DNA from: Candidatus Eiseniibacteriota bacterium
GTDB taxonomy: Bacteria > Arandabacterota > Arandabacteria > JAGLYR01
DNA length: 8,692 nucleotides
Assembly: GCA_023132135.1 (NCBI GenBank)
Contig: JAGLYR010000203.1
Location: forward strand, 1-8,692
Direction of reading: 5' to 3'
Shown here piece by piece: positions 5,042 through 8,637 of the stretch. Under the pieces are notes generated by a model. The model saw nothing but the letters and a program-made list of their open reading frames with translations. It searched no databases and was not told the origin of the DNA. Each line of letters begins with the position of its first letter. The stretch's first letter is position 1. A program made the position numbers and the translations under genes.

Positions 5042-5953
5042 CTACCCCAATCGCTTGCGCTTATGCAGATAGTTGAACAGCAGGCTGTCGTAGGGGGTGC
5101 TCGTTTCTGTGGGCACGTAATCAATCAAACTCTCCCCGCAGCGGCGGCGGTACTCCAGGAGCCACTCGCGAATCGCCCCCTGGTACCGGTCTCTCACTCG
5201 CCATGGTTCGGTCAGGATTTCCTGGTGCGTCTCCAGATCCCGAAGAATGACTTCCCCCTCAAAGGGAAATCCCACCTCGCTGGGATCGAGAACATGAAAG
5301 ACCAGGACTTCATGCTTCCGGTGGCGGAAATGCCGGAGCCCGGAAAGTACCTTGCCGGAGTCATCCTGCAGATCCGAGATCAGAATGATGAGCCCGCGCC
5401 GCTGGATTCGCTCCGCCAAGTCATGAAGCGCTGCTCCCACATTCGTCCTCTCGCCCGCCTCCACCCGTCCCAGCTCTCCCAGCAACAGATGCAAATGCGA
5501 ACGGGTCGAGCGGGGAGCGATGAACCTGCGGATCTTCGTGTCGAAAGTCAGTAACCCGACCGAATCCTGCTGCTTGAGCATGAGGTAGCTCAGGCTGGCG
5601 GCCAGTACGCACCCGTATTCCAGCTTCGACATACCGCCCGAGCGATAGCCCATCGAGGCACTCGCGTCCAGTACTATGTAGGCGCGGAGGTTCGTTTCCT
5701 CCTCGAACTCCTTGATGAAAAACCGGTCTGTCTTCGCATAGACCTTCCAGTCGACATGCTTGATCGGATCGCCCGGCATGTACGCGCGATGCTCTGCGAA
5801 CTCCACGGAGAATCCCCGGTAGGGCCCCCGGTGCAGGCCCGCGATGAATCCCTCCACCACCAGCCGGGCCTTGAGTTCCATTGTGGCGAGCCGCGCGACA
5901 ACCGCAGGATCAAGGAAACGTTTTGTGTGTTGCTCTGCCAATCGACTACCCAA
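5042..5953 (-). CDS. DUF58 protein with vWA-like metal site
   Basis: This is a 303-residue soluble DUF58 protein, the usual partner of MoxR ATPases. The family signature R-x-Y-x-x-G-D-x-x-x-x-x-D-W is present as RAYMPGDPIKHVDW at 56-69. The following vWA-like part has a full metal-ion site: DASAS at 96-100, T170 in ERTNVG, and D194 in LISDLQDD. There is no signal peptide or membrane segment, so it is probably cytoplasmic. The start is TTG, overlapping the MoxR stop by 8 bp (TTGGGTAG). A second in-frame TTG at 5941-5939 (residue 5) is an alternative. The first in-frame ATG (residue 25) would remove the conserved FLDPAVVARL segment, so a TTG start is preferred. No clear Shine-Dalgarno precedes it, which fits translational coupling to MoxR. 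The family is certain; its exact role (probably a MoxR client or adaptor) is not established. Confidence 0.95.
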   Translation of the reverse strand: MGSRLAEQHTKRFLDPAVVARLATMELKARLVVEGFIAGLHRGPYRGFSVEFAEHRAYMPGDPIKHVDWKVYAKTDRFFIKEFEEETNLRAYIVLDASASMGYRSGGMSKLEYGCVLAASLSYLMLKQQDSVGLLTFDTKIRRFIAPRSTRSHLHLLLGELGRVEAGERTNVGAALHDLAERIQRRGLIILISDLQDDSGKVLSGLRHFRHRKHEVLVFHVLDPSEVGFPFEGEVILRDLETHQEILTEPWRVRDRYQGAIREWLLEYRRRCGESLIDYVPTETSTPYDSLLFNYLHKRKRLG

Positions 5954-6959
5954 CGGTTACGGGAACCGCTTCTGTCAATCTCGTCACGATCTCGGGTGCG
6001 GCGATCCCGTCGGCCTCTGCGTTAAAGGAAGTCACAAGCCGGTGACGAAGAACGGCCAGCGCCACCGCTTTTACATCATCGACCTCGGGAGTGAAGCGTC
6101 CATCCAGGACTGCTCGCGTCTTGGCGGCCAGGGTCAGATACTGGGACGCTCGCGGGCCCGCACCCCAGCTCACCCACTCTCGAATGAAATCCGGAGATCC
6201 GGGCTCACCAGGTCGGGACCAGCGAGCCAGCCTCACCGCGTAGTGGAGCACGTGATCGGAAACCGGCACTCTCCTCACCAGTCCCTGGAGATGGATGATA
6301 TCCTCCCCCGAAAGAACCTGGTCGAGCTGCGCTTCGTATGCACTCGTGGTGGACTCGACGATCCGTCCCTCTTCCTCTGCGCTGGGATAATCAACGTGCA
6401 CATTCAGCATGAACCGGTCGAGCTGCGCCTCGGGAAGCGGATAGGTCCCCTCCATTTCGATGGGATTCTGCGTCGCCAGCACAAAGAACGGTGGCTCCAG
6501 GCCATGCGTCTGCCCTCCAGCAGTCACTTCCCGCTCCTGCATGGCCTGGAGAAGAGCCGCCTGGGTTTTCGGCGGGGTCCGGTTGATCTCGTCCGCCAGA
6601 ATGATATTGGCGAAGACGGGTCCCCGAATGAACTTGAATCCCCGTCGGCCCGTCTCCGGATCGTCTTCAAGGATATCTGTCCCCGTGATGTCTGAAGGCA
6701 TGAGATCCGGCGTGAACTGGATCCGGCTGAAACGGAGATTCAGGATGCTGGCCAGCGTGCTGACCATCAGGGTCTTGGCCAGTCCCGGCACTCCCACCAG
6801 AAGACAGTGCCCGTTGCCGAGGAGGCCCATGAGCAACTGCTCAATGACGCCTTCCTGGCCCACAATGACCTTCCCCATTTCCGCCCGGATCCGGGCATGT
6901 GCCTCCCGGAGTTCCTTGATTCCAGCCAGATCCTGTTCGTGCGCTTCTGTTGCAGTCAA
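5946..6959 (-). CDS. MoxR-family AAA+ ATPase
   Basis: This 337-residue AAA+ ATPase is of full family length. Visible motifs are Walker A GVPGLAKT (56-63), Walker B ILADE (120-124), sensor 1 in LATQNP (161-166), a probable arginine finger in LDRFM (R182), and the sensor 2 region around GAGPRAS (266-272). The stretch EGTYPLPEAQLDRFML is typical of MoxR proteins. MoxR ATPases are thought to act as chaperone-like machines that mature or load metal-binding and vWA-containing partners, and the next two genes encode such vWA-type proteins. The start is TTG (6959-6957) with a good GGAGGG (6968-6973) 8 nt upstream. As the first gene after a 120-bp gap with a possible promoter, it probably opens the moxR-DUF58-BatA-mfd unit. 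It ends inside the DUF58 start (8-bp overlap). Confidence 0.96.
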   Translation of the reverse strand: MTATEAHEQDLAGIKELREAHARIRAEMGKVIVGQEGVIEQLLMGLLGNGHCLLVGVPGLAKTLMVSTLASILNLRFSRIQFTPDLMPSDITGTDILEDDPETGRRGFKFIRGPVFANIILADEINRTPPKTQAALLQAMQEREVTAGGQTHGLEPPFFVLATQNPIEMEGTYPLPEAQLDRFMLNVHVDYPSAEEEGRIVESTTSAYEAQLDQVLSGEDIIHLQGLVRRVPVSDHVLHYAVRLARWSRPGEPGSPDFIREWVSWGAGPRASQYLTLAAKTRAVLDGRFTPEVDDVKAVALAVLRHRLVTSFNAEADGIAAPEIVTRLTEAVPVTVG

Positions 6960-6967
6960 GACCTCTT

Positions 6968-6973
6968 CCCTCC
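6968..6973 (-). promoter_or_regulatory. Shine-Dalgarno of the MoxR gene
   Basis: On the minus strand GGAGGG lies 8 nt before the TTG at 6959-6957. This is close to optimal spacing and supports the non-ATG start. Confidence 0.7.
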
Positions 6974-6989
6974 GTCCACCGTCGTTCTC

Positions 6990-6998
6990 GGTGGATAA
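6990..6998 (-). promoter_or_regulatory. DnaA-box-like site (TTATCCACC)
   Basis: The minus strand reads TTATCCACC, one mismatch from the DnaA box TTATNCACA at the last position. It is part of a cluster with sites at 7059 and 7080. It also forms half of a short inverted repeat, GATAA-GTG-TTATC (6994-7006), whose other arm is a poorer box, TTATCTCCC (7002-7010). It lies 30 bp upstream of the MoxR start codon, so it could also be a repressor-type site near the 5' end of that transcript. Confidence 0.45.
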
Positions 6999-7016
6999 GT
7001 GTTATCTCCCGGCACC

Positions 7017-7046
7017 AAGATACAGGCATAACATGTTGTATCGCAA
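7017..7046 (-). promoter_or_regulatory. Possible sigma-70-type promoter for the MoxR operon
   Basis: On the minus strand TTGCGA (7046-7041, matching TTGACA at 4 of 6) is followed after 18 nt by TATCTT (7022-7017, matching TATAAT at 4 of 6). The predicted transcript would start near 7010, about 50 nt before the TTG start codon. The spacer contains the palindrome AACATGTT (7030-7037). The element sits between DnaA-box-like sites. It is a pattern match only and could be chance, but this is the sole gap in which the tightly packed downstream genes could acquire a promoter. Confidence 0.3.
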
Positions 7047-7058
7047 CCACTTCCAGCG

Positions 7059-7067
7059 TTATCCACA
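7059..7067 (+). promoter_or_regulatory. DnaA box, perfect consensus (TTATCCACA)
   Basis: The plus strand reads TTATCCACA, an exact match to the classic DnaA box. A second near-match in the same orientation begins exactly 21 bp later, about two helical turns, so both would face the same side of the DNA. It lies in the non-coding gap between the bactofilin and MoxR genes. Confidence 0.6.
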
Positions 7068-7079
7068 TATTACCCAGAG

Positions 7080-7088
7080 TTATCCACT
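7080..7088 (+). promoter_or_regulatory. DnaA-box-like site (TTATCCACT) overlapping the bactofilin stop codon
   Basis: The plus strand reads TTATCCACT, one mismatch from TTATNCACA. It is a direct repeat of the site at 7059: both read GTTATCCAC followed by A or T and then TA. It covers the TAA stop (7082-7080) and last codons of the bactofilin gene, so part of its sequence is also coding. Confidence 0.45.
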
Positions 7089-7484
7089 TACCTTCGTCTC
7101 TTCAGGAATTCGTGCCGCCTGGGGCGCGTCCCCGCTCTTGGCGGGATCCCCATTCATCCGGCAGCTCCCCTGAAAAAACACACCCTCGGCGATCACCAGG
7201 CTTGTGGTGGTAACGTCGCCCTCCATATGGCAGCCTGCTTCCAGTTCAACCCGTTTGGATGCCGATACGTTCCCGAAAACGCGGCCTCCAACGATCATCG
7301 ACTTGGCTTTGACATCCGCCCGCACGACTCCCGACTTCCCGACGACCAGCATTTCTGTCACCGTCAGATTCCCCTCAACCTCGCCATCGATCCGGATGGA
7401 CCCCTGGATTTCCGCCGTTCCCTTCAGGACCGATCCCTGCCCAATGACTGAGTTGATCATATCTTCCCTCGACTTCTCTTTCAT
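7080..7484 (-). CDS. Bactofilin (polymer-forming cytoskeletal protein)
   Basis: Bactofilins polymerise without nucleotide into filaments or membrane-associated sheets that position envelope enzymes. This 134-residue protein has the typical layout: a short polar N-terminus (1-12), a beta-helical core (about 13-108) and a disordered tail rich in Pro, Ala, Lys and Glu. The core shows the repeating glycine/valine pattern: GSVLKGTAEIQGSIRIDGEVEGNL, with later rungs VRADVKAKSMIVGGRVFGNV and VELEAGCHMEGDV. There is no signal peptide. The ATG has a strong purine-rich GAGGGAGG ending 4 nt upstream (7489-7496). The upstream gene, across 373 bp, encodes an M23 endopeptidase, a recurrent bactofilin partner. 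In Helicobacter (CcmA with Csd proteins) and in budding alphaproteobacteria (BacA with LmdC) such pairs control cell shape. A shape or local wall-remodelling role is inferred here. Confidence 0.95.
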   Translation of the reverse strand: MKEKSREDMINSVIGQGSVLKGTAEIQGSIRIDGEVEGNLTVTEMLVVGKSGVVRADVKAKSMIVGGRVFGNVSASKRVELEAGCHMEGDVTTTSLVIAEGVFFQGSCRMNGDPAKSGDAPQAARIPEETKVSG

Positions 7485-7857: not shown

Positions 7858-8637
7858 TCAATCCCGGCCGGTCAGAGCTTCCATCGGATCGATGGGATCC
7901 CCGTCCTTCCTGATCTCAAAATGCAGGTGGGGGGCGCTGCTCACCCCCGTGCTTCCGATAATTCCGATCTCCTGCCCCTTGACCACCGTTTCCCCTTCCC
8001 CCACCAGCAGATCCTCATTGTGCCCGTACCTGGACTCATAACCATCGTCATGGCCAATGATGACCAGATTCCCCAAGCGGGCGTCCCACCCGGAGAAAAC
8101 GACGATTCCCGATCGCGCCGCTCGCACTGGTTCACTCTTCGCGGCTACGATGTCAATCCCCAGATGGCCCGCGTCCTTGCCGGATGCCGCGCGGAATCCT
8201 CTCGAAATCCACCCCATTGCGGGCCACTCCCAGTTTGCATCTGCAGCGCTCCCGACAACCAGAAATGGCGGGATCGTCCCCAGGGGTCCGCCCCCTGTGA
8301 TCTGCCCGTTCTTGGAAAGCACTGTGTCCACAGGCAGACCAACCCACTCGCGGATCCGGGAGTGGAACTCGCCCAGCGCAAGCAGATTTTCCTCGAGCTG
8401 CAGTACCTTCCCGTTCGCCTTGGCCAGCTCCCGGTTTTCCACGGTCAGGAGCTCCACCTGGCGAATTGTCTCCCGGTACTCTCCGATCAGCACCCCCAGC
8501 GCAATCAATCCCATGACCGCCACGGCGCAGAATCCACCCAGGCCCCAGAGAACCCACGCGGGAACCCTCACCTTCCAGCTATTGGTTCGGTCATGTGGAG
8601 CGATGATGATGGAGTACCATCTCCGGGCGTTCAACAT
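7858..8637 (-). CDS. Membrane-anchored M23 zinc metallopeptidase (LytM-type endopeptidase)
   Basis: M23 enzymes cut peptide cross-links in peptidoglycan. This 259-residue protein has a basic cytoplasmic N-terminus (1-26, with the APHDRTNSWKVRVP segment), one transmembrane helix (about 27-51), a short predicted coiled coil (about 52-90) and a C-terminal M23 domain (about 138-255). All expected metal and catalytic residues are present: H158 and D162 in HLGID, H206 in RYGH, and H237 and H239 in HLHFE. It is therefore probably an active enzyme with its domain in the periplasm, not a degenerate activator such as EnvC. The ATG is preceded by AGGA about 6 nt upstream; only 55 bp of 5' sequence is visible, so promoter and upstream neighbours are unknown. 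The bactofilin gene follows in the same direction after 373 bp, which suggests a scaffold-enzyme pair. Confidence 0.95.
   Translation of the reverse strand: MLNARRWYSIIIAPHDRTNSWKVRVPAWVLWGLGGFCAVAVMGLIALGVLIGEYRETIRQVELLTVENRELAKANGKVLQLEENLLALGEFHSRIREWVGLPVDTVLSKNGQITGGGPLGTIPPFLVVGSAADANWEWPAMGWISRGFRAASGKDAGHLGIDIVAAKSEPVRAARSGIVVFSGWDARLGNLVIIGHDDGYESRYGHNEDLLVGEGETVVKGQEIGIIGSTGVSSAPHLHFEIRKDGDPIDPMEALTGRD

Follow-up and report, generated by a model that had tools for sequence, protein, structure and literature searches.

DnaA is the protein that initiates chromosome copying, and elements outside the origin that reset DnaA, datA and DARS, have been described in E. coli and other Proteobacteria. 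The E. coli datA element is non-coding, lies 3' of a transcription unit and carries DnaA boxes around a bending site in a spacing-dependent arrangement (PMC10380432, PMC10950094), and bending by IHF at this site brings DnaA molecules together (PMC10380432). DARS1 and DARS2 of E. coli contain three core DnaA boxes at fixed spacing, two of which are opposed (PMC8682772, PMC4585315).

DnaA boxes between bactofilin and moxR

The window, by which we mean the whole stretch of DNA analysed, is one complete contig of 8692 bp from a 3.40-Mb genome in 345 contigs. All of its genes lie on the minus strand, in the order M23 peptidase (7858..8637, Pfam PF01551), bactofilin (7080..7484, Pfam PF04519, E 8.6e-27), a 120-bp gap, MoxR ATPase (5946..6959, Pfam PF07726), DUF58, BatA-like and Mfd. 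The contig ends (8692) just upstream of the M23 gene, at the place that parB and parA occupy in relatives; no ParB was found in the genome assembly containing the window, which is probably due to an assembly gap.

Directly 3' of the bactofilin gene and upstream of moxR, we found a non-coding element of about 99 bp with three DnaA boxes. Box 1 (6990..6998, minus strand, TTATCCACC), the one distal to bactofilin, differs from TTATCCACA by at most one mismatch, lies 30 bp from moxR and is inverted with respect to the other two. Box 2 (7059..7067, plus strand) is a perfect TTATCCACA, and box 3 (7080..7088, plus strand, TTATCCACT) has at most one mismatch and begins with the three bases of the bactofilin stop codon. 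These results confirmed the sequence-only reading, which had listed one perfect and two one-mismatch boxes and a 21-bp spacing of the two plus-strand copies (7059 and 7080), and which had called the gap less GC-rich than its surroundings (6960-7079 is 49% AT, compared with 39% for the window). A fourth, poorer site that it included, TTATCTCCC, lies in a stretch without conservation in relatives and is dropped here.

The claim that such a cluster is improbable by chance also held within the window, where four matches to TTATCCACA with at most one mismatch were present against 0.68 expected, and four or more appeared in 2 of 200 whole-window shuffles; the fourth match is an unrelated site at 2747. 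Across the 3.4-Mb genome the outcome was divided. The word TTATCCACA occurs 8 times against 7 for a reversed control, so that it is not enriched, and one-mismatch DnaA boxes occur at about 100 places or more, but a same-strand TTATCCAC pair within 90 bp is found only at this array.

A conserved array with an internal palindrome

The same layout (inverted box 1, a spacer of 59-61 bp, box 2, 12-13 bp, box 3) recurs 3' of bactofilin across phyla, and both Zixibacteria and genomes from one or more other phyla carry it directly 3' of an M23-bactofilin pair. Among 80 loci from a MoxR search, only L071 and L072, two Zixibacteria loci, carry the M23-bactofilin pair immediately before moxR, in the order seen in the window, and these were also the only loci with clusters of three or more boxes. 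A bactofilin search added two genomes, G013 and G010, with boxes just 3' of bactofilin. The layout in L071, L072 and G013 was thus recovered without geometry as a query. Read in the same direction, the distances between box starts are 21 and 69 bp in this genome, 20 and 70 in L071, 20, 20 and 69 in L072, and 12, 21 and 69 in G013, while G010 differs, with 11 and 65.

When the three-box spacing was itself used as a search pattern, it matched in 8 of 386 genomes and its reversed control in none. At four of these sites the boxes are densely clustered, much as they are at origins; the remaining sites, in this genome, G013, G161 and G110, all immediately follow a bactofilin gene. Within Zixibacteria the pattern was found in 34 of 132 genomes, at one site each and with no control matches, and about three quarters of the genomes had no match to the strict pattern. 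The 30 array loci that we fetched from this group all have an M23 gene immediately upstream, together with a recognisable bactofilin in 29. In these matches the spacing is partly fixed by the query, as are the eight box 1 bases GTGGATAA; location, single copy, ninth base and palindrome are independent of it. The ninth base adjoining box 1 is T in 33 of 34 arrays, the window's copy being the exception, and the ninth box bases, absent from the query, are conserved in 32-33 of 34. A matrix built without the window gives it 58 bits, whereas the highest null score was 7.

The arrays span at least three phyla, counted as this genome (G000), Zixibacteria, and the group of G013, G161 and G110, whose kinship to G000 is "same domain"; the set of 132 Zixibacteria includes none of these four genomes. 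For G010, G013, G161, G110 and G001, genes were identified by eye from translations. In a comparison that the earlier reading had proposed, the 9-mers proved to be conserved in relatives, where the remaining spacer positions carry little information, and relatives place M23-bactofilin in an mnmG-rsmG-parA-parB neighbourhood. Our literature searches, which covered open-licence papers, turned up no DnaA element described next to a bactofilin gene.

Further analysis of the spacer uncovered a 25-bp palindrome (7029..7053, TAACATGTTGTATCGCAACCACTTC) that had been overlooked in the first reading. It lies exactly 5 bp before box 2, matches the consensus TAAN4TTGN5CAAN4TTA at 11 of 12 positions and is present in every array copy. 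The mean score over 34 arrays was 9.2 of 12, compared with 3.35 (sd 0.26) in shuffles. Since the consensus was read mainly from Zixibacteria, the four arrays from elsewhere test it largely independently; the score is 11 in this genome and 9-11 in the other non-Zixibacteria arrays. In 3.1 Mb of sequence the combination of palindrome and box was found only at these arrays, at an array in G001 and upstream of dnaA in four sister-family genomes, and shuffles gave none. Together, the conservation of layout, location and palindrome across phyla and the absence of control matches refute the reading of the array as a chance cluster of 9-mers, which the lack of genome-wide enrichment of TTATCCACA would favour and to which we now give a negligible probability.

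Three identities for the palindrome and its flanking boxes were considered and rejected. IHF as the binder is made less likely by the near absence of its full consensus (TAAnnnnTTGATW), which 1 of 34 spacers contains; 14 of the 34 have the exact core, and in form the palindrome looks like that core doubled. It is not parS (TGTTNCACGTGNAACA), which has a different sequence and lies elsewhere. A possible RNA stem, with box 1 paired to box 2, has no Rfam match, and substitutions in box 2 break the pairing; these substitutions, TTTTCCAC and, upstream of dnaA, TTATCAAC, stay close to DnaA-box variants.

With these features in hand, the array can be set beside the E. coli elements. Like datA, it is non-coding, single copy and 3' of a transcription unit, with boxes around a second site. 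Unlike the array, datA needs a minimal region of 187 bp, has a canonical IHF site between essential DnaA boxes and lies downstream of a tRNA operon rather than of bactofilin; its layout in L321 (boxes at 745+, 907+ and 919-, IHF site at 810) is also different. Where datA has its IHF site, the arrays have a symmetric relative of the core, the full consensus being present in only the one spacer of 34. DARS shares with the array three boxes, two opposed, at fixed spacing. However, the opposed boxes of DARS1 are 14 bp apart with their CACA ends facing, whereas those of the array are 69 bp apart, have their TTAT ends facing and enclose the palindrome, so that the close head-to-head boxes I and II plus box III of DARS are not seen. 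Because the E. coli elements lack its geometry, the array may work like datA or DARS but belongs to neither family.

Origins, neighbouring genes and segregation sites

The earlier reading had suggested that the boxes could be part of oriC. We weighed the array as an origin of replication, whether current, recently abandoned or secondary, at which DnaA would load and unwind the neighbouring region. It has clustered DnaA boxes, as bacterial origins do, and these are beside the par operon; parS lies 3.4-3.5 kb away in most Zixibacteria tested; in four genomes with both on one long contig the array is 0.06-1.6 Mb from dnaA. A module of box 1, palindrome and box 2 stands immediately upstream of dnaA in four sister-family genomes, one of which, G001, has its skew switch there, and this module could equally mark the element as an origin part. 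The copies are at L177 5040-5130 (G001:C57, about 45 kb), L048, L049 and L051. The same G001 contig also has a full array (L175 1877-1967) 3' of V-ATPase-like genes, 33 kb from bactofilin, with a degenerate palindrome (6 bits).

GC skew was examined in six genomes, and in five of them (G110, G387, G410, G412 and G001) there was no negative-to-positive switch at the array. The switch falls at dnaA in G001 (45 kb, with the array 43 kb away) and in G110 (11 kb from the array); in G387, box clusters flank dnaA. In G412, a single contig, dnaA lies mid-arm, about 0.96 Mb from the cumulative minimum, and the array is nearer to that minimum, at about 276 kb. The sixth genome, G411, shows an apparent switch, but the array there, at a truncated bactofilin (G411:C1 1827466), lies 1.43 Mb away from the one parS site that was found (394889). 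For these reasons we took the switch as a rearrangement breakpoint and rejected the G411 array as an origin; the separation is probably an inversion or a misassembly with its breakpoint in bactofilin. In the window itself, skew is negative on both sides of the array, and no shift in leading strand is seen among the co-oriented genes on either side of 25 arrays. Skew in the examined genomes is weak and mixed with gene direction, and four-fold-site skew over sampled windows is too noisy for exact origin placement, so that these data argue against the origin reading rather than exclude it.

The base composition points the same way. The gap has no AT-rich unwinding element, nor room for one, with a maximum of 60% AT in 40 bp, whereas this genome's dnaA-dnaN gap reaches 85%. 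The latter (L003, contig C9, 702-1632, 930 bp) combines this stretch with four one-mismatch DnaA boxes and is likely a canonical oriC; its locus encodes dnaA (cut short at its 5' end by the contig boundary), dnaN, DUF721-like, gyrB, gyrA and hflX-like genes. Since the array has neither a skew switch nor an unwinding element, it is probably not oriC, and we consider an origin function there, present or former, distinctly unlikely.

We also considered the array as a DnaA-dependent transcription switch, acting either on the moxR operon, as the sequence-only reading had offered, or as a roadblock that ends the par-M23-bactofilin transcript. DnaA-dependent roadblocks are known (PMC10950094), and the element fills a 120-bp gap in which box 3 shares bases with the stop codon of bactofilin and box 1 is close to moxR. 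However, the gene downstream differs between lineages: moxR follows most Zixibacteria arrays but not those of other phyla, where we found hflX-like genes (G013 and G161) or V-ATPase-like subunits (G010 and G110). Other arrays are followed by a membrane protein gene (L219-L222) or lie between convergent genes (L204). Moreover, the moxR match starts some 150-400 bp beyond box 1 in most Zixibacteria, the G001 array is remote from bactofilin, and a search of the gap revealed no sigma-70-like promoter, the only promoter type covered, and no terminator. Because the downstream gene varies and can be convergent, the array is probably not a moxR promoter, and a switch of either kind seems unlikely to us.

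The frequent attachment of the array to bactofilin raises a further reading, in which it is a segregation or anchoring site that links DnaA to ParABS and bactofilin through a segregation protein on the palindrome. A bactofilin-type protein organises ParABS in Myxococcus xanthus (PMC5703909), and many relatives have the array attached to the par operon. Yet the array keeps to bactofilin where mnmG-rsmG and parS lie apart (G110 and G411). In G110 (L173, G110:C26 41.6-60 kb), bactofilin and the array are on the gyrA side of dnaA and mnmE-mnmG-rsmG on the other, which suggests that bactofilin has moved but kept its array. In G001, the array accompanies V-ATPase-like genes while bactofilin is elsewhere, and the palindrome, as noted, is not parS. 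We therefore regard a segregation site as very unlikely.

A candidate DnaA-control element

The reading that we prefer is that the array is a conserved DnaA-control element, assembling a defined DnaA complex away from the origin and working like E. coli datA or DARS; on our analysis, this is about evenly poised between right and wrong. Constant spacing, opposed boxes and the intervening palindrome together suggest one ordered complex with DNA bending or looping. A dimeric protein at the palindrome, HU/IHF-like or another, would bend or loop the DNA and so bring together the DnaA bound at boxes 2 and 3 and that at box 1. The resulting complex would alter how much active DnaA there is or its nucleotide state, in the manner of the E. 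coli elements datA and DARS, and placement near the origin in several relatives would tie the element to early duplication of that region.

Of the earlier proposal of DnaA titration, the general idea of titration or control survives. Titration clusters, like the array, hold high-affinity boxes outside the origin, but titration needs only boxes, whereas the array scarcely varies in geometry, occurs once per genome and includes a palindrome as well. Its fixed spacing and single copy indicate a specific DnaA complex and not titration alone.

Somewhat more tentatively, and from sequence comparison, the arrays may form a previously undescribed, single-copy family of DnaA-control elements in at least three phyla, in which a loop of DnaA and a palindrome-binding protein beside bactofilin would link the initiation cycle to a segregation and cell-shape locus outside Proteobacteria. 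If so, DnaA control of the datA/DARS kind would be older, or would have evolved more than once. A defined sequence is now available for finding the palindrome-binding partner protein, and the array would tie the timing of replication to the bactofilin/par region through a concrete piece of DNA.
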